Shown: positions 36,083-53,275 of the stretch, piece by piece
Numbering within the stretch: the stretch's first letter is position 1
Layout: each line of letters opens with the position of its first letter
Assembly: GCF_014202505.1 (NCBI RefSeq)
Contig: NZ_JACHGW010000004.1
Location: 248,001-312,000 of the forward strand
Direction of reading: 5' to 3'
Origin: Armatimonas rosea
Lineage (GTDB): Bacteria > Armatimonadota > Armatimonadia > Armatimonadales > Armatimonadaceae
Length of the DNA stretch: 64,000 nt
The notes under the pieces: model-generated
What the model was told of the DNA's origin: nothing
Databases searched by the model: none
Seen by the model: the letters and a program-made list of their open reading frames with translations, nothing else
Made by a program: the position numbers and the translations under genes

Positions 36083-36152
36083 CCCCCCCTAACCCCCGTC
36101 CGACGGGGGGACAAAGAGGAATCCTTCCCCCCGCTGGGCGGGGGTTAGGGGG
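36083..36152. repeat. REP-like double palindrome, copy 1
   Basis: Two G/C hairpins (CCCCCG..CGGGGGG and CCCCCCGC..GCGGGGG) are bracketed by inverted ends CCCCCTAACCCCC and GGGGGTTAGGGGG. A related, inverted copy is at 52148-52228. The element provides the TAA of dusB (36145-36147) and part of the ankyrin gene's ribosome-binding site. Confidence 0.75.
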
Positions 36153-37164
36153 CAACGATCTCGCTCTCTTTATCGCCGAGGGTCTCGTGCCACTCCATCG
36201 CTTGATCGAGGGTCGCCTCCACTTGGGCGAGCGTGCGGGTCTCGCCGCTGGTGATGACGCCGCGCAGGCGGGTGGCGCCGGGGATTCCCTTGAAGTAGTG
36301 CGGGAGCAGGCCGCGTAGCTCGCGGACTCCGATATTCTCGCCTTGCTGGGCGCACTGGAGCCGCGCGTGCTGTCGGGCAATCGCGAAGCGCTCCTCGATA
36401 GACGGGCCGGGGCCGTAGGTGCCGGTGGCAAGATAGTCGGCGATTTGCTTCAGGAGCCAGGGATTTCCCAGCGCCGCGCGGCCCACCATCACGCCATCGC
36501 AGCCGGTCTCGCGCACCATGCGTGCGGCGTCCTCGGGGGTCTCGATATCGCCGTTTCCGACCACGGGAATCAGGTCCCCGACTTCGTCCTTGACCCGCGC
36601 GATAATGCTCCAGTCCGCTGTCCCCGAGAAGCCCTGGCTGGCAAAGCGTGCGTGCACCGCGATGGACTTGGCCCCGAGTTGGGCGGCGGACTTGGCAAAC
36701 TTGATCGCCGTGATATGGGGCTGGTCGAAGCCCGCGCGCACTTTGACGGTCACCGGCTTGTGTGGGACTGCCTTCACCACCGCATCGACCACGGCCTCGG
36801 CCTGGCAGATGTCCTTGAGCAGCGCCGCGCCCGCGCCGGTCTTGGCGACTTTGGGCACCCAGCAGCCCATGTTGATGTCCACGCCATCGGCACCGGCATC
36901 GCAGACAATCCGCGCGGCCTCGGCCATTACTTGCGGATCGGCACCAAAGAGCTGGCAAAAGCTCGGGTACTCGTCGGCGCTCCAGTCGAACATCCCGAAG
37001 GTCTTCTCGTTCTTGTAGTGGATCGCCATGGAGCTAATCAGCTCGGTGACCACCAGCCCGACCCCGCCGAGCTGCTTGCAGATCACACGGAATGGGTGGG
37101 CGGTGATTCCGGCCATGGGGGCCAGAATGACATTGGGGACGATATCAATAGTATCTATTCGCAC
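36145..37164 (-). CDS. dusB: tRNA-dihydrouridine synthase (DusB-like)
   Basis: 339 aa from a GTG. FMN-binding start VILAPMAGITAHPFRVICK, the catalytic Cys region DINMGCWVPKVAKTGAGAAL, HARFASQGFSGTADW and VVGNGDIETPEDA are all DusB-type. It reduces uridines in tRNA D-loops. Where most family members have MGCP, this one has MGCW. The stop codon lies in a palindromic repeat, so the last residues (VAP) may come from the insertion. TAGAAT lies 6 nt before the GTG. Confidence 0.94.
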   Translation of the reverse strand: MRIDTIDIVPNVILAPMAGITAHPFRVICKQLGGVGLVVTELISSMAIHYKNEKTFGMFDWSADEYPSFCQLFGADPQVMAEAARIVCDAGADGVDINMGCWVPKVAKTGAGAALLKDICQAEAVVDAVVKAVPHKPVTVKVRAGFDQPHITAIKFAKSAAQLGAKSIAVHARFASQGFSGTADWSIIARVKDEVGDLIPVVGNGDIETPEDAARMVRETGCDGVMVGRAALGNPWLLKQIADYLATGTYGPGPSIEERFAIARQHARLQCAQQGENIGVRELRGLLPHYFKGIPGATRLRGVITSGETRTLAQVEATLDQAMEWHETLGDKESEIVAP

Positions 37165-37176: not shown

Positions 37177-38265
37177 TCGTGTGGGCTTGCCGTCTTTGTA
37201 AATGCGAATGAAGTGATCGGCCATCTTGATCGGAAAGCTCGTCCCGGGAAAGACCTTGGCAGTCGGCATGTGGCAGGAGACACACTTCTCCTTGGGATTC
37301 ACCGGGCAGGCTTTCTTGGGCGCGGCGTGGCACGAAACACAGACCGCCTCGTAGCGCTTCGTGTCCGTAGACGCGTCCTCGTGCGGGTTGTGGCACGTCA
37401 CGCAGCTTAGCTTGTCGTTGCTCTGTTTGAAGCACTGGCTCAGCGAGAGGCCGTAGGGCATGAACCGGCTAGTCGCCTGCTTGGAGAGCTCGTCCATGTG
37501 CTCCACATCGGCGGGGGCGCGGTGACAGCGGCCACAGACCTCGTTGAGGCGCTTGCCCCCCGTGCCGCGGAGGGCGGTGAGCAGGACGCCCTTGGACTTA
37601 TCGCCCTTTTGCATCGCCGCGACGTGCTCGCTCCCTGGACCGTGGCAAGACTCGCACCCCACCCCGAAGAACTTCCGCTCCGGCATCAAGGAGTCCGGGG
37701 GCAAGACCACGGCATGGCAACCGACGCAGCGCTGGGAGTCGTCCTTGGGATGGATCCAGCCCACGGAGGTGGCCTCAAACTTCTCCTGACCCGGCGTGAC
37801 GATCCACTGTTTGGTGTGCGGGAAGTAGCTATGGCGCAGCTCCAAGCTCCCCTCAGAATCGACAGCCAGAAAGGTGATCCCCGTCTTCCCCGAGCCCAAA
37901 GCAAGATCTAGGGGCGCAGCAAGCGTCATATTGGTCTGCTGGGCGGGCGCGACCACATTGAGCTGGCCTTTTTCCCAGGCCAGCGCACTCTCACCGGGGA
38001 GCGGACCAGCGGGCGGCGCAAGCGCCCCCAGCTCGGACTGGGTGGCTTTTCGCAGGGTCTGCATGTGCCGGGTATTCGTATGGCTCTTAAACTCCGCCGC
38101 GTGACACGGCTTGCAAGCATCGTTGCCGAGAAACTGCGCCGTATTGGGTGTGGGAGCGGGACTCGGTGCGGTCTCCGACTTCGGCGTGGTGGGAGTACAG
38201 GCCGCCACCCAAAGGACAATGAGCGGAAGAAGGGCTGCGGGGACAAGGGTACGAGGAGGCATCAT
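37174..38265 (-). CDS. Heptaheme cytochrome c lipoprotein, paralogue 5
   Basis: 363 aa. Lipobox LWVAAC, then seven CxxCH haem motifs: CKPCH, CVGCH, CESCH, CGRCH, CVTCH, CVSCH, CVSCH. Fits the multihaem cytochrome c554-like group: periplasmic or outer-envelope electron carriers. The segment from CVTCH to the last haem (37265-37416) is nearly identical at DNA level to the four upstream paralogues. TATACT (38277-38282) lies 11 nt before the ATG, so it may have a short leader. Physiological partner unknown. Confidence 0.92.
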   Translation of the reverse strand: MMPPRTLVPAALLPLIVLWVAACTPTTPKSETAPSPAPTPNTAQFLGNDACKPCHAAEFKSHTNTRHMQTLRKATQSELGALAPPAGPLPGESALAWEKGQLNVVAPAQQTNMTLAAPLDLALGSGKTGITFLAVDSEGSLELRHSYFPHTKQWIVTPGQEKFEATSVGWIHPKDDSQRCVGCHAVVLPPDSLMPERKFFGVGCESCHGPGSEHVAAMQKGDKSKGVLLTALRGTGGKRLNEVCGRCHRAPADVEHMDELSKQATSRFMPYGLSLSQCFKQSNDKLSCVTCHNPHEDASTDTKRYEAVCVSCHAAPKKACPVNPKEKCVSCHMPTAKVFPGTSFPIKMADHFIRIYKDGKPTR

Positions 38266-38284
38266 TGACGTCGCTTAGTATACT

Positions 38285-39379
38285 CTACTTCCGAAAAACC
38301 CGGATAAAGTGGTCGGCCATGCTCACGGAAAACTCCGCATTGGCAAACGCCGAGCGCGTGGGCATGTGGCAAGACACGCACTTCTCCTTGGGATTCACCG
38401 GGCAGGCTTTCTTAGGCGCGGCATGGCACGAGACACAGACCGCCTCGTACTGCTTCGTATCCGTAGACGCGTCCTCGTGCGGGTTGTGGCATGTCACGCA
38501 GCTCAGCTTGTCGTCGGACTTCTGGAAGCACTTGCTCAGCGAGAGACCGTACGGCTGGAAGCGATTGGTTGCGGTCTTGGAGAGGTTATCTTGGGTGATC
38601 GACTCCAGGGTCTGGTGGCACTTGCCGCAGACCGCGCTCACTTTCTTCCCGCCAACACCACGAAGAGCCGTGAGCAGGAGCCCCTTGGACTTATCGCCCT
38701 TTTGCATGGCGGTGGCGTGTGCACCGCCCGGCCCGTGGCAGGACTCGCAGCCCACCCCGAAGAAACGGCGCTCCGGTAGAAGCGGGGCATCGGGCGGGGA
38801 GACCGCGTGGCACGCAATGCACTTGACCGTCTCCGGCGCACTCAGGCTCGCGGCGACCACGTTTTTTTCGTAGCGCTCCATCCCCGGCGTGAAGAACCAC
38901 TTTTTCTCCGGGGGAAAGTAGCTCTTGCGCAACTCGACACTGCCTTGATCATGAACCGCGAGGCAGGTCATTCCGGTCTTCCCCGAGCCCAGCACGAGAT
39001 CAATGGGGACCGGAACGGGCGCCCCCGTGTCTTTGTTTGGGACGATCACGGTTAGCTGGCCTTGGTCCCAGGTCACCTCGCCCCCCGCGCCCGGAATCGG
39101 TCCGGCGGGAGGCGCGAGCGGTCCCAGTGCCGCCTGCGTCCCCTCGCGGAGGGTCTGCATGTGACGGGTGTGTGCGTGGCTGGCAAACTCGGTTTCGTGG
39201 CACGGCTTGCAAGCATCATTGCCGACGAAGCCCGATGCGGTTGCCGCCACGGAGGGCTCGGTGCCCCAGCCCTTTCCGCCCGCTTCACCTCCCGGCTCGG
39301 GGGCGCTCGGGGTGCAGGCGGCAAAGGCGAGCAGGAGCAGGGGTAGAGCCAGCGCCCCGAGGCGAGCCCCGGCTCTCAT
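38285..39379 (-). CDS. Heptaheme cytochrome c lipoprotein, paralogue 4
   Basis: 364 aa; ATGA overlap with paralogue 3. Lipobox AFAAC and seven haem motifs (CKPCH, CIACH, CESCH, CGKCH, CVTCH, CVSCH, CVSCH). A Gly-rich linker follows the lipidation site. The middle contains LVLGSGKTGMTCLAVHDQG, a segment shared by the set. The conserved 3' block lies at 38361-38512. Confidence 0.93.
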   Translation of the reverse strand: MRAGARLGALALPLLLLAFAACTPSAPEPGGEAGGKGWGTEPSVAATASGFVGNDACKPCHETEFASHAHTRHMQTLREGTQAALGPLAPPAGPIPGAGGEVTWDQGQLTVIVPNKDTGAPVPVPIDLVLGSGKTGMTCLAVHDQGSVELRKSYFPPEKKWFFTPGMERYEKNVVAASLSAPETVKCIACHAVSPPDAPLLPERRFFGVGCESCHGPGGAHATAMQKGDKSKGLLLTALRGVGGKKVSAVCGKCHQTLESITQDNLSKTATNRFQPYGLSLSKCFQKSDDKLSCVTCHNPHEDASTDTKQYEAVCVSCHAAPKKACPVNPKEKCVSCHMPTRSAFANAEFSVSMADHFIRVFRK

Positions 39380-40470
39380 TTCTTAAAGACCCGAATAAAG
39401 TGATCGGCCATTTTGGTGGGGATGGTGGTTCCCGCAAACACCTGGCGCGTGGGCATGTGGCAGGAGACGCACTTCTCCTTGGGATTCACGGGGCAGACGG
39501 TCTTGGGCGCGGCATGGCACGAGACACAGACCGCCTCGTAGCGCTTCGTATCCGTAGACGCGTCCTCGTGCGGGTTGTGGCATGTCACGCAGCTTAGCTT
39601 GTCCGCAGATTTCTGAAAGCACTTACTCAACGAGAGACCATACGGCTGGAAACGCTGGGTTTGCTGAGAGCTCACCGGATCGTTGCGGTCGATAGTGGCG
39701 GCGGTTCGGTGGCACTTCCCACAGGTCTCCAGCACGACCGAGCCAGGGGCGGCCTTGAGTCCTTCGATCAGTGCCTTGCTCGGCTTCCCCGCTTCTGCAG
39801 CGGCGACATGGGCGCTTCCGGGGCCGTGGCACGCCTCACAGCCGACCCCGATAAAGCGCTTCTCCAGTCCCAGCCGATCCGGCGGCAGGGTGACGGCGTG
39901 GCAGAGGACACACTTGCGAGCAATCGCCCCAGGGACATGGTCCCCCGGCGCGGTGCTGGGGACTTTTTCCTGGCCGGGCGTGGTGTACCAGGTCTTGGTG
40001 GAGACAAAGTAGCTCTTGTGGAGCTCGGTCAGGGTGCCATCCGCAAAGGCGGTCGCGTAGGTAACTCCGGTCTTCCCCGAGCCAAAGGCCAAATGAAGTG
40101 GCAGGGCAACCTTGCCTCCTGCCAGCACAAACCGTCCCTCGGCACGCTTGAGGGAAAACGGGGTTCCAGGGATCTTCCCCACGGGCGGAGTGAGCTCTCC
40201 CAGCTCGCCCTCCACGGCGCGGCGCAGGGTCCGCATGTGCCGGCTTTCTCCATGGGTCTTGGCGAGCTCGGCATGGCAGGGGCTACACGCGGGAGTCCCA
40301 ACAAACTCTGCCTCGTCGAGAGCACTCAGGCTCGCCGCCGTCTCCGCCACTGGGGGCGCGGCGGTGGGGAGCGGTGTCGGAGAGGCCACGGGCGGCGCTT
40401 CTTGTTGGCAACCCGGAGCCAGAAGCAGGCACACCAGGAGGGCCAAGGGGCCAAGCAGACGCCAGATCAT
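39376..40470 (-). CDS. Heptaheme cytochrome c lipoprotein, paralogue 3
   Basis: 364 aa. Lipobox LLAPGC and seven haem motifs, with CSPCH and CVLCH as variants; the most diverged in its N-terminal half (GTPACSPCHAELAKTHGESR), yet its 3' block (39452-39603) matches the others closely. TAAAAT (40477-40482) lies 6 nt before the ATG, giving it a promoter of its own. Confidence 0.93.
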   Translation of the reverse strand: MIWRLLGPLALLVCLLLAPGCQQEAPPVASPTPLPTAAPPVAETAASLSALDEAEFVGTPACSPCHAELAKTHGESRHMRTLRRAVEGELGELTPPVGKIPGTPFSLKRAEGRFVLAGGKVALPLHLAFGSGKTGVTYATAFADGTLTELHKSYFVSTKTWYTTPGQEKVPSTAPGDHVPGAIARKCVLCHAVTLPPDRLGLEKRFIGVGCEACHGPGSAHVAAAEAGKPSKALIEGLKAAPGSVVLETCGKCHRTAATIDRNDPVSSQQTQRFQPYGLSLSKCFQKSADKLSCVTCHNPHEDASTDTKRYEAVCVSCHAAPKTVCPVNPKEKCVSCHMPTRQVFAGTTIPTKMADHFIRVFKK

Positions 40471-40476
40471 GGGGGG

Positions 40477-40482
40477 ATTTTA
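40477..40482 (-). promoter_or_regulatory. Leaderless -10 box (TAAAAT) overlapping a stop codon
   Basis: GGTAAAAT with six C residues before the ATG at 40470; bases 40480-40482 are the TAA stop of cytochrome paralogue 2. Confidence 0.6.
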
Positions 40483-41601
40483 CCGTGTTTTTTGGCTCTC
40501 GCGGAAGACCCGGATGAAGTGATCCGCCATGGCGATGGGAATGGCACTCTTGTCCTTGGGGAACAGCCGCCGCGTGGGCATGTGGCAGGAGACGCACTTC
40601 TCCTTGGGATTCACGGGGCAGGCTTTCTTGGGCGCGGAGTGGCACGAGACACAGACCGCCTCGTACTGCTTCGTGTCGGTCGACGCATCCTCGTGCGGGT
40701 TGTGGCATGTCACGCAGCTTAGCTTGTCCGCAGATTTCTGAAAGCACTTGCTCAGCGAAAGACCGTACGGCTGGAAACGCTGGGTGGAGTCCTTGGGCAG
40801 GTTGTTCTCCGCGACGGTCTTGGCGGTCTGGTGGCACTTTCCGCAGACCTCGTTGAGGCGTGCGCCGCCGATCCCCGAGAGAGTGGGAAGACGCAGCCCC
40901 TTGGACTTGTCGCCCGTCTCCATCGCCGTGACATGCTCGCGGCCCGGCCCGTGGCACGACTCGCACCCCACGCCAAAGAACTTCCGCTCGGGCAGGAGCT
41001 CGGTGGAGCCAGGGACGGTATGACACCCCACACAGCGGCGGGTCTCGGCGACACTGTGAGACTGGCCCACAACCGTGCTCTCAAAGGTCTCCTGGCTGGG
41101 GGTAACAATAAAGTTCTTGGTGTGAGGAAAGTAGCTCTGGCGAATCTCCACACTGCCCTGGTCGTGCACCGCCAGGAAGGTCAGCCCCGTCTTCCCCGAG
41201 CCCAGCACGAGATCCAGAGGGACGGGCACAGGCTCGCCGTTGTCCTTGCTTGGCGCGATCAGGGTGAGCTGCCCCTGGTCCCACGCAAGCTCCCCCGCCC
41301 CAGGAAGCGGCCCCGCCGGAGGGGCCAGCTCGCCCAGAGCCGCTTGTGTCGCGGGACGCAGGGTCTGCATGTGCTTGGTGGGGGCGTGCATCGAAAACTC
41401 CGCAGAGTGGCACGCTTTACAGGAGTCGTTGCCGACATAGGGATTGGTCGCCACGGCACTACTCGCCGTGGCCCCCTCCCCCCAGCCCTTGCCGCTCGAC
41501 GCGCTTGGGGTATCCGAGGCCGTGGGAGTACAAGCGGCGACCACGAGTACAGCCATGGGGAGAAGCAAGGCAAGAAACACACGGAGGGATCGAAACGTCA
41601 T
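40480..41601 (-). CDS. Heptaheme cytochrome c lipoprotein, paralogue 2
   Basis: 373 aa, the longest of the set because of a C-terminal extension (ESQKTR) and a Ser-rich linker. Lipobox VVAAC; haem motifs CKACH, CVGCH, CESCH, CGKCH, CVTCH, CVSCH, CVSCH. ATGA overlap with paralogue 1. Conserved block 40577-40728. Confidence 0.93.
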   Translation of the reverse strand: MTFRSLRVFLALLLPMAVLVVAACTPTASDTPSASSGKGWGEGATASSAVATNPYVGNDSCKACHSAEFSMHAPTKHMQTLRPATQAALGELAPPAGPLPGAGELAWDQGQLTLIAPSKDNGEPVPVPLDLVLGSGKTGLTFLAVHDQGSVEIRQSYFPHTKNFIVTPSQETFESTVVGQSHSVAETRRCVGCHTVPGSTELLPERKFFGVGCESCHGPGREHVTAMETGDKSKGLRLPTLSGIGGARLNEVCGKCHQTAKTVAENNLPKDSTQRFQPYGLSLSKCFQKSADKLSCVTCHNPHEDASTDTKQYEAVCVSCHSAPKKACPVNPKEKCVSCHMPTRRLFPKDKSAIPIAMADHFIRVFRESQKTR

Positions 41602-42683
41602 TTTTTGAAAACTCGGATAAAGTGATCGGCCATGGCGATGGGAATCTCGCTCTTGGCCGTGTTAAAGATACGGCGCGTGGGCATGTGGCAGGAGACACAC
41701 TTCTCCTTGGGATTCACTGGGCAGGCTTTCTTGGGCGCGGCGTGGCACGAGACACAGACCGCCTCGTACTGCTTCGTATCCGTAGACGCGTCCTCGTGCG
41801 GGTTGTGGCATGTCACGCAGCTTAGCTTGTCCGCAGACTTCTGGAAGCACTTACTCAACGAAAGACCGTACGGCTGGAAACGCTGGGTCATCTCGCGTGC
41901 CCCCGCATCCATCGCCGCGACATCGCTGGGGGTGCGGTGGCAGGTCCCACAGGCCTCGTTGAGGCGCTTGCCCCCGACACCACGGAGAGCGGTGAGCAGG
42001 ACGCCCTTGGACTTGTCGCCCTTTTGCATCGCCACCACATGCTCGCTTCCCGGACCGTGGCAAGACTCACACCCCACCCCGAAGAAACGGCGCTCCGGCA
42101 GGAGGCGGCTCTGGGGAAGGGTCACACAGTGGCAGGTGAGGCACTGCATCGTGGCATCCTTGGTGTAGATGCGCCCGTTGTGGCCCTCCTGCGCCCGCTC
42201 CTGCCCCGGCGTCAGAAACCACTTTTTCTCGTGGGGGAAGTAGCTCTGGCGAATCTCCGCGCCGGTCTCCGTAAAGAGCGCCATAAAGGTCATCCCGGTC
42301 TTACCCGAGCCCAGCACGACGCTCAAGGGAACCCGCTCCCCTGGCTTCAGTGCGATGGGTGAGTCGGCGTGGAAGCGGCCCTGCTCAAGGGTGAAGGTGC
42401 CGCCCCCGGGGACGGCACCAGGTGTGGGTGCGAGCTCCCCCAGGTCTTCCTGCGTGGCCTCGTGGAGGGTCTGCATGTGCTTGGTGTGCGCGTGGCTCGT
42501 GAACTCTGCGGCGTGGCACGGCTTGCAAGCGGCGTTGCCCATGAAGAGTGTGGGTTCCAGGGAGGCCGGGTCTGGAGTCGCCACGGGAGCGCTGGGAGCG
42601 GGGGGCTCGGGAGCCTTGGGTGTACAGGCGGCGAGTAGCAACACCAAAATCGGGGCGATCCCACAGAGCACACGCCAGGTCAT
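41598..42683 (-). CDS. Heptaheme cytochrome c lipoprotein, paralogue 1
   Basis: 361 aa, first gene of the array. Lipobox LLAAC; seven haem motifs (CKPCH, CLTCH, CESCH, CGTCH, CVTCH, CVSCH, CVSCH). Expected on the outer face of a membrane after lipidation and haem attachment, in respiratory or extracellular electron transfer. No cytochrome maturation or terminal reductase gene is nearby. Conserved block 41680-41831. TAGAAT lies 6 nt before the ATG. Confidence 0.93.
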   Translation of the reverse strand: MTWRVLCGIAPILVLLLAACTPKAPEPPAPSAPVATPDPASLEPTLFMGNAACKPCHAAEFTSHAHTKHMQTLHEATQEDLGELAPTPGAVPGGGTFTLEQGRFHADSPIALKPGERVPLSVVLGSGKTGMTFMALFTETGAEIRQSYFPHEKKWFLTPGQERAQEGHNGRIYTKDATMQCLTCHCVTLPQSRLLPERRFFGVGCESCHGPGSEHVVAMQKGDKSKGVLLTALRGVGGKRLNEACGTCHRTPSDVAAMDAGAREMTQRFQPYGLSLSKCFQKSADKLSCVTCHNPHEDASTDTKQYEAVCVSCHAAPKKACPVNPKEKCVSCHMPTRRIFNTAKSEIPIAMADHFIRVFKK

Positions 42684-51135: not shown

Positions 51136-51141
51136 ACTCTA
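51136..51141 (-). promoter_or_regulatory. Leaderless -10 box (TAGAGT) overlapping a stop codon
   Basis: GGTAGAGT 6 nt before the ATG at 51129; its TAG (51139-51141) is the stop of the DapA-like gene. Confidence 0.55.
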
Positions 51142-52245
51142 CCGCAACCAGGTGTCGAGGTGTTCCGCGATAAAGTCATCGTCGGGCTGGGCGAGGTGCG
51201 GGTAGGCGGCGCGGACCCGGTCTATTTCCTCGCGCTGACCGGGCGAGAGCCCCTCGTTTTCATCAAGGCACCAGGTGCCCTCCAGCAAGCCCTGCTGCTG
51301 CAAGACATAGTGAATCCCCGCGATGCAACCGTGGAAGCCGTGGGCGGCATCGAAGATCGCGGCGTTCCGATCGGTCTCGGCGATCCCGGTCTCGAGAAGG
51401 GCGGCGGGGACAGTATCCGTGACCGCTTGGCAGGTTTTCAGAAGCGCGACCGCATTTTTTGTCCAGCAGGCCCAGTGCCCGAGGAGCCCCCCGACAATCC
51501 GGCGACCGAAGTAGGGCGTCACCAAGTCCGCCACAATCGCATCGTCGTTGCCCGTGTAAAGCGCGACATCGTCGCGGCCGGTCGCCACCAGGGCGCGCAC
51601 CACATCGAGGGTCTGGTAGCGGTTGAAGGGCGCGATCTTCACGGCGACCACGCTCTCGATCTCAAAGAAGCGCCGCCAGAAGGCGTAGGGCAAGACGCGC
51701 CCGCCGACCGCGGGCTGGAGATAGAAGCCGACAAGTGGGATGACCTCCCCCACCGCGCGGCAATGCGAGAGAAGCGTCTCGTCATCGGCGTTTTTGAGCG
51801 CCGCCAGCGAGAGCAGCCCCGCATCGTAGCCCAGCGACTTGAGCAGGCTCGCCTCAGCGACAGCTTGCTTGGTCTCGCCACAGACCCCACCGATCCGAGT
51901 GACTTCACGCCCCGCCCGGTCCATTTCTTCTTTGGCGAGGGCAAGGACGGGCTCAAATAGCCCCACCTTTGGGTCTCGGATCGCGAACTGCGTCGTATGC
52001 ACCCCGACCGCAAGCCCCCCGGCTCCCGCCGCCAGGTAGTAGCGTGTCAGCGCCCGCTGCCGACGCTCGTCGAGCTTGCGGTTTGCGGTCAGCGCCAGCG
52101 GCTGTGCGGGAATGGCGAGGCCACGCAAGAGCTCCCCGGCCTTTCTTCCCCCCCCTGCCCCCGCCGGGCGGGGGGGAGAAAAGGAATTAGATTCTGCTTT
52201 GTCCCCCCGCTCGGCGGGGGCTAGGGGGTTCTCAAAACTTTCCAT
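51139..52245 (-). CDS. DapA-family aldolase with in-frame palindrome insertion
   Basis: 368 aa. Dihydrodipicolinate-synthase/N-acetylneuraminate-lyase family: GLAIPAQPLALTANR, GAGGLAVGVHTTQFAIRD, VGFYLQPAVGGRVL (Tyr) and the Schiff-base Lys in VVAVKIAPFNRYQ. Family members cleave or form keto-acids, fitting uronate catabolism. After the first five codons (MESFE), residues about 6-34 (NPLAPAERGDKAESNSF and following) are encoded by a palindromic repeat; homology resumes at AGELLRG. The start overlaps the epimerase stop by 14 nt. Confidence 0.9.
   Translation of the reverse strand: MESFENPLAPAERGDKAESNSFSPPRPAGAGGGRKAGELLRGLAIPAQPLALTANRKLDERRQRALTRYYLAAGAGGLAVGVHTTQFAIRDPKVGLFEPVLALAKEEMDRAGREVTRIGGVCGETKQAVAEASLLKSLGYDAGLLSLAALKNADDETLLSHCRAVGEVIPLVGFYLQPAVGGRVLPYAFWRRFFEIESVVAVKIAPFNRYQTLDVVRALVATGRDDVALYTGNDDAIVADLVTPYFGRRIVGGLLGHWACWTKNAVALLKTCQAVTDTVPAALLETGIAETDRNAAIFDAAHGFHGCIAGIHYVLQQQGLLEGTWCLDENEGLSPGQREEIDRVRAAYPHLAQPDDDFIAEHLDTWLR
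52148..52228. repeat. REP-like double palindrome, copy 2, inside coding sequence
   Basis: Same architecture as 36083-36152 in inverted orientation: CCCCCGCTCGGCGGGGG and CCCCCGCCGGGCGGGGG hairpins around GACAAAG and GGAAT-like cores. About 81 bp, a multiple of three, leaving the DapA-like frame open. Confidence 0.75.
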
Positions 52246-53236
52246 CGCGCACCTCGAATTTCGTGGGCTTGCCTAGAGTGGGGCCGCCGTTCTTGATCCA
52301 CGCCGCGGTCCACTCGAGAACCTGCTCGATAGGGACGGTCGGGTAGCCAAAGACGCGGTGGGCTTTCTGGCCGTTGGAGAGCAGGGCCAGCGGCGCTTCC
52401 TCTCCCTCGAAGTGCGGCTCTTTCCCGAGGAGCTTCCCGAGCTGGGTGGCAAGCCGGCGCACGGAGAGCTGCTCCGGGCCAGCGAGGTTGAAGATGGCCG
52501 CAGGCGATGATGCGTGGGCGAGGCTCTGGAGCGCCCACGCATTAGCATCGCCCTGCCAGACCACATTGACGGCGGCCATCGCCACGGAGATCGGAGTCCC
52601 CTCCCAGACCTTGCGGGCGAGATCGCACAGGACACCGTAGCGCAGCTCGACCGCGTAGTTGAGGCGTAGGAGGGAGACCGGGGTCTCGTAGGTATTGGCA
52701 AAGTACTCAAAAATCCGCTCGCGGCCCAGGCAACTCTGGGCGTACTCCCCCACCGGCCCCGGCGCGTCGGCCTCGACACTGCCACCCTGGTGGAGCGGGG
52801 TCAGGGGATAGACATTGCCGGTCGAGAACGCGGCGATCCGGCTCGTGGTGAAGCGCTGGCAGACCAGACCGGGCAGGAAGCTATTCATCGCCCAGGTCAG
52901 GGGCTCGTTGCCGGTTGCGCCGAACTTCATCCCCGCCATGAAGACAATGTTCTCCACATCGGGGAGCGCGAGCAGGGCATCGACATCCAGCAGGTCCGCG
53001 CCGATAGTCTCCACCTCAGCTAGCTCAAGCGCGGCGCGTGTGGCGGGGTCGGAGAAGCGGCTCACGGCGATCACGCGGCGCTTCTTGCCCACCGCACGCT
53101 TGGCCATTCGTGCCAGGGTCGGCCCCATCTTCCCCGCCGCCCCAAGAATCAGAAAGTCACCGTCGAGGGCATCCAGCGCCGCCACCACCGCCGGCGTCGG
53201 CTCTGACAGGCGCTCCTCAAGTTCGTCTATAGTCAT
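52232..53236 (-). CDS. NAD-dependent epimerase/dehydratase-like protein
   Basis: 334 aa from the ATG at 53236 (a GTG at 53254 is in frame). Rossmann motif FLILGAAGKMGPTLARM, an extended-SDR body (ENIVFMAGMKFGATGNE, AAFSTGNVYPLTPL) and PEQLSVRRLATQLGKLLG near the C-terminus. The usual YxxxK is not clear near EYAQSCLGRERIFEYF, so catalysis may differ. It precedes the DapA-like gene by overlap and is likely part of the same sugar-acid pathway. Confidence 0.83.
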   Translation of the reverse strand: MTIDELEERLSEPTPAVVAALDALDGDFLILGAAGKMGPTLARMAKRAVGKKRRVIAVSRFSDPATRAALELAEVETIGADLLDVDALLALPDVENIVFMAGMKFGATGNEPLTWAMNSFLPGLVCQRFTTSRIAAFSTGNVYPLTPLHQGGSVEADAPGPVGEYAQSCLGRERIFEYFANTYETPVSLLRLNYAVELRYGVLCDLARKVWEGTPISVAMAAVNVVWQGDANAWALQSLAHASSPAAIFNLAGPEQLSVRRLATQLGKLLGKEPHFEGEEAPLALLSNGQKAHRVFGYPTVPIEQVLEWTAAWIKNGGPTLGKPTKFEVRDGKF

Positions 53237-53275
53237 GCCGCCACGATTCACCACCGCAGCGGCATTTTCCTTGGC

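Follow-up and report, generated by a model that had tools for sequence, protein, structure and literature searches.

A dispersed palindromic element lying in frame in a DapA-like aldolase gene and in other unrelated genes of Armatimonas rosea

Results

The aldolase locus and its palindromic element

The window, that is the whole stretch of 64,000 nucleotides of the Armatimonas rosea genome that was analysed (assembly GCF_014202505.1, contig NZ_JACHGW010000004.1, positions 248,001 to 312,000), contains a gene encoding a DapA-like aldolase and two copies of a palindromic element, with the following features; the sister species used for comparison is a member of the same genus.

36085–36152, no strand assigned: the window's second copy of the element, a 68-bp pair
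36145–37164, minus strand: Dus-like gene (named from sequence motifs), its TAA stop supplied by the second element (36145–36152)
51139–52245, minus strand: DHDPS/DapA-like aldolase gene of 368 amino acids, with the element in frame at residues 6–33
52126–52128, minus strand: in-frame TTG (codon 40), lying in helix 33–41 of the structure model; from the sequence, no other alternative start follows the element closely
52150–52228, no strand assigned: 79-bp palindromic element, left unit on the plus strand from 52150, right unit on the minus strand at 52204–52228
52232–53254, minus strand: NAD-dependent epimerase gene lying upstream, with a 14-nt overlap at the aldolase start, an arrangement that is the same in the sister species
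52243–52245, minus strand: ATG start, located before the element and conserved in the sister species
52250–52255, minus strand: Shine-Dalgarno-like GAGGTG before the ATG, in identical context in the sister species

The element in the aldolase gene consists of two inverted G/C hairpin units (CCCCCCTGCCCCCGCCGGGCGGGGGGG... and ...TCCCCCCGCTCGGCGGGGGCTAGGGGG) around an A/T-rich middle. The first-pass annotation had described an 81-bp G/C double palindrome after codon 5; this palindrome is present and in frame, but its core is 79 bp long and a start at 52148 adds two flanking C. Likewise, a second copy exists where one had been placed at 36083–36152, with limits of 36085–36152 and a length of 68 bp. 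Both copies are predicted to form near-perfect single long hairpins (folding z −6.2 and −6.5), and no match to Rfam was detected anywhere in the window. Elsewhere in the window, a tandem array of five paralogous stretches, each about 1.1 kb long, lies at 37189–42542 (direct repeats D1–D8).

The open reading frame, which is assigned to the DHDPS family (PF00701, E 2e-6), translates through the element as MESFE-N-PLAPAERGDKAESNSFSPPRPAGAGGG-RKAGELLRGLAIPAQPL, giving the junction peptide MESFENPLAPAER; the peptide encoded by the element, in this and other enzymes, is about 27 amino acids long. Comparison with a relative lacking the insert, as had been proposed in the first-pass annotation, was possible in the sister species, where the aldolase orthologue is 88% identical and uninterrupted (ATGGTAAGTTTTAAGGCAGGC; MVSFKAGVAIPAQPL). 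Its start context GAGGTGCGCGATG is identical and it overlaps, as in A. rosea, the end of the upstream epimerase gene, and since a gene without the element retains the same Shine-Dalgarno sequence and ATG, the ATG before the element is taken to be the ancestral start. Without the element the aldolase N-terminus is of the usual length (e.g. MNNFDFRSPLQHGIAIPA compared with MESFE-KAGELLRGLAIPA). In a structure model built on an alignment of 38 sequences, residues 1–33 have pLDDT values below 50 and are predicted to be disordered, followed by a confident helix at residues 33–41 and an intact barrel.

A dispersed repeat family

About 190 units of the element family are present in the 6.3-Mb genome. 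A strict unit pattern gave 76 matches and its reversed form none, while the genome-wide search proposed beforehand, made with a relaxed pattern allowing up to three mismatches, gave 202 matches compared with 10 for the reversed control. A slightly different pattern with up to two mismatches was matched 148 times in this genome and 130 times in the sister species, with no control matches; these controls exclude a chance G/C palindrome. Among 61 genomes the family was found in one genus, being near-absent from the rest of the family and order, with nearly all other relatives having no matches and one genome (G029) having a few. Another genome, from a different family of the same phylum (G019), has 76 matches of a similar-looking unit, CCCCCTARCCCCCCGAnnTCGGGGGG, which differs in its loop and is possibly an independent family.

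Among the matches listed, 87 clusters were sampled, comprising 54 head-to-head pairs, 33 single units and no tail-to-tail pair. The lengths of the sampled pairs centre on 79 and 76 bp, and each unit carries the tag CTAA or CTAG 5′ of its stem. The view that the element is a repeat and no gene-specific linker is thus upheld by its genome-wide dispersal, by its in-frame occurrence in at least 11 other genes and by the sister aldolase without it, which rules out such a linker.

In-frame copies in other genes and copies at gene ends

Analysis of frame and coding potential identified genes reading through the element in frame at 12 of 82 sites among the matches listed, a case being called in frame where coding potential was found on both sides or where a start codon lies just upstream of the element. 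Two weaker candidates (C1:736087 and C1:882706) were excluded from the 12 for their poor match to the repeat. The hosts are the aldolase, metH, queG, a sulfatase, a PSCyt2/PSD1 protein, acpS, an M56 peptidase, a DUF1501 protein, a prepilin leader, a membrane protein and two hypothetical proteins. Support from Pfam exists for MetH (activation domain), QueG, sulfatase, PSCyt2, ACPS and M56, and the DUF1501 and prepilin hosts were named from sequence motifs. By Pfam these proteins are mutually unrelated, so that the repeat lies in frame in at least 12 unrelated genes, the pattern by which protein-coding palindromic elements are recognised.

All 12 cases read PLTPAxRGD...; the junction peptides of MetH and QueG are ...VLVSPLTPAER and ...QSYDFGPLTPAER. 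The typical 79-bp copy has one frame per strand that is open end to end (PLTPAxRGD...SPRxxGVRG), which is the commonest pattern, and the peptides of the consensus 79-mer are nearly alike on both strands (PLTPAQRGDNKESDSFFSPRSAGVRG and PLTPAERGEKKESDSLLSPRWAGVRG); it is this single open frame per strand and the near-identity of the two peptides that give the same motif in every in-frame case. The proportion of open frames was 0.82 in copies of the element and 0.55 where their middles were shuffled, an excess that is no proof of selection because the copies share their consensus by descent. From the reading frames, the element-encoded peptide would be expected to be part of the mature protein.

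Regarding gene ends, the stop codon of at least 15 genes, among them the Dus-like gene of the window, is the TAA or TAG of the element's first unit, and at least 13 further reading frames terminate inside an element.

Comparison with the sister species

In addition to the aldolase, metH and the gene at C1:1002381 are uninterrupted in the sister species, and all three orthologues without the insert are otherwise intact. The inserts of the prepilin, the DUF1501 protein and C1:1594309 are common to both species and in frame in both, with lengths that differ by whole codons. Their pN/pS values are 2.4, 0.6 and 0.9 compared with 0.15, 0.22 and 0.35 in the flanks (rough values, from 27 codons each), which suggests that the frame of shared inserts is constrained while the peptide drifts nearly neutrally.

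At queG, PSCyt2 and acpS the sister species has a different insert at the same place, and queG of a third genus (G006) has yet another. The inserts at these places of queG, acpS and PSCyt2 are in frame and come from other, unrelated G/C-rich repeats, and two such inserts also lie in a PHP-like gene (loci L240, L256, L262 and L244 of the sister species and L239 of G006). These places are apparent insertion hot spots for several families.

RAYT and DUF559 genes

Seven matches to Y1 transposases (RAYT-like) were detected in the genome, but none of them, nor any of the four examined in the sister species, carries or adjoins a unit of this family, and a RAYT as the adjacent cognate transposase was therefore rejected. 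The RAYT genes are bracketed by other inverted repeats, as are the TIRtrons of PMC3733652, and some lie beside hairpins of related form, e.g. GTCCCCCCGTTCCAATCGGGGGGGCTTA. Just one gene was found to be enclosed by two inverted units of this family, and it encodes a DUF559 nuclease (C2:614517–615005; L155 in this genome, G000), and the orthologous site of the sister species also has a DUF559 gene, apparently truncated.

Across relatives, 12 of 29 DUF559 loci lie between inverted repeats whose score exceeds the 99th percentile of controls, a test that is conservative because the control pool included some RAYT and DUF559 loci. DUF559 genes bracketed by inverted REP-type palindromes were seen often and in several genera (L155, L228, L210, L217, L331, L232 and others); the bracketing palindrome is dispersed over about 13 places in G006 and confined to two arrays in G007. 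No paper treating DUF559 together with RAYT or with the term repetitive extragenic palindromic was found in the literature searched, and DUF559 is not mentioned in the papers listed for it under inverted repeat, transposase or endonuclease.

Discussion

Relation to known palindromic elements

In-frame, protein-coding palindromic insertions are known from Rickettsia (RPE; PMC3733652), as the first-pass annotation had pointed out, but this is not the sole precedent, as intragenic in-frame REPs of the GTAG/CGTC type, as well as stop codons supplied by REPs, have been reported from many bacteria (PMC3733652). As far as RPE is described in that source, the present element resembles it as a palindrome in frame in many unrelated genes, mostly with one readable frame and tolerated by its hosts; it differs in lineage, in its presumably unrelated sequence, in being shorter than RPE-1, in its two inverted REP-like hairpins and in also supplying stop codons at gene ends. 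With the GTAG/CGTC REPs it shares in-frame REP dimers of about 20–30 residues, a location of most copies near gene 3′ ends and unit ends that provide stop codons (PMC3733652). It differs from these superfamilies in having CTAA/CTAG rather than GTAG or CGTC at the stem, in a genus outside the families treated there, where Armatimonadetes are not mentioned, and in the insertion of different families at the same sites in sister species.

REPINs are REP doublets that form hairpins and are associated with RAYTs (PMC3116915). The present element is like them in being dispersed, in that its inverted doublets (the 54 head-to-head pairs of 87 clusters) fold to one long hairpin, in that singlets are likely remnants, and in the presence of RAYTs in the genome; unlike them, it has no RAYT flanked by the same repeat and has instead a DUF559 gene between two of its units. 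The element works like these families but is kept outside both, as it has neither tag and no RAYT carries its unit.

Interpretation and alternative explanations

The element is very probably a genus-specific, REPIN-type miniature mobile element that has spread by transposition and lies in frame in genes where flexible residues are tolerated. It would move probably in the form of hairpin DNA on which an enzyme acts in trans. The element is a pair of inverted hairpin units, usually of 79 or 76 bp; most copies are intergenic or located at the ends of genes, where the TAA or TAG of a unit can be used as a stop, with a minority inside genes. As the typical 79-bp copy is open in one frame per strand, intragenic copies would survive only in that phase and without a frameshift, at N-termini, loops and linkers that tolerate about 27 flexible residues; in the DHDPS-like gene the insertion would have extended the N-terminus by about 29 residues, predicted to be disordered. 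At the level of sequence, we take as established the dispersal and pairing of the units, the uninterrupted sister gene, the conserved start, the in-frame insertion in many genes and the keeping of the frame between species. In-frame palindromic insertion itself was already known; what looks new is the repeat family, its lineage and its apparent link with a nuclease gene and a recombination regulon.

Regarding the aldolase, the element could lie in an untranslated leader and be non-coding there, with translation starting at the TTG of codon 40, which is preceded at a distance of a few bases by GGGGAG; according to a caution given in PMC3733652, many REPs at N-termini are extragenic for such a reason. 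This is unlikely, since the ATG and its Shine-Dalgarno sequence are conserved in the sister species, where no further start precedes the conserved part, similar overlapping ATG starts recur in distant orthologues, no stop codon interrupts the stretch from the ATG to the aldolase, and a TTG start would cut the predicted N-terminal helix (residues 33–41) that is present in most orthologues. Moreover, it would leave the mid-gene elements in metH, queG and others unexplained.

Regarding the origin of the repeat, descent from a DDE insertion sequence with CCCCCTAACCCCCG ends, which would make it a classical MITE rather than a REPIN-like element, would account for the length, the terminal inverted repeats and the want of a RAYT with the same repeat, but we consider it improbable, since each end is itself a hairpin, single units stand alone in 33 of 87 clusters as REPs do, no obvious duplication was seen by eye in the 8-bp flanks, and RAYTs are present, some of them next to hairpins that are related in form, e.g. 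GTCCCCCCGTTCCAATCGGGGGGGCTTA. A selected function of the inserted peptide in its host proteins, e.g. in regulation or localisation, could be read from the three genes in which the insert has stayed in frame since the species split, and from the prepilin, where it forms the leader directly before the FTLIE segment. Such a function is very improbable and is disfavoured by pN/pS values near or above 1 between strongly constrained flanks; in addition, the host proteins are unrelated, and in other species the same sites have no insert or unrelated ones.

A possible link with competence and recombination

The RAYT and DUF559 genes have a common leader, TTTRTCAGA-N14-VCCGTTNTR, which is matched 24 times in this genome and 21 times in the sister species (controls 3 and 4); in six other genomes its numbers equal or approach those of the controls. 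The leader is also found before genes recognised by sequence as recA (L294/L338), radC (L318/L333), comEA (L324/L335/L339), comM (L329/L334) and recQ (L330/L341), before a sigma-factor-like gene (L327/L343) and, in this genome, in the rpsF region; most leader-gene pairs were found in both species. It is read as a putative ECF-type promoter of a competence/recombination regulon.

RAYT or DUF559 enzymes may move the element. We tentatively suggest, as a possibility that is rather less than even, that DUF559 (Vsr-like) proteins are a second class of REP-associated enzymes, with inverted REP-type palindromes bracketing their genes in several genera, that they mobilise or home REPIN-like elements, and that, as they and the RAYTs share the ECF-like promoter of recA, comEA, comM, radC and recQ, such elements spread, also into genes, in connection with competence or recombination. 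The link between palindromes and DUF559, together with the tie of both enzymes to this promoter, would make the old question of REP mobility directly testable. In addition, the element provides a clear natural experiment in which the addition of peptide segments to working enzymes by short mobile hairpins can be followed, its material being uninterrupted genes across two sister species, shared inserts constrained only in frame and permissive sites occupied by different repeats. One copy of the leader lies before comM, 0.9 kb past the right end of the window (G000:C4:312911).
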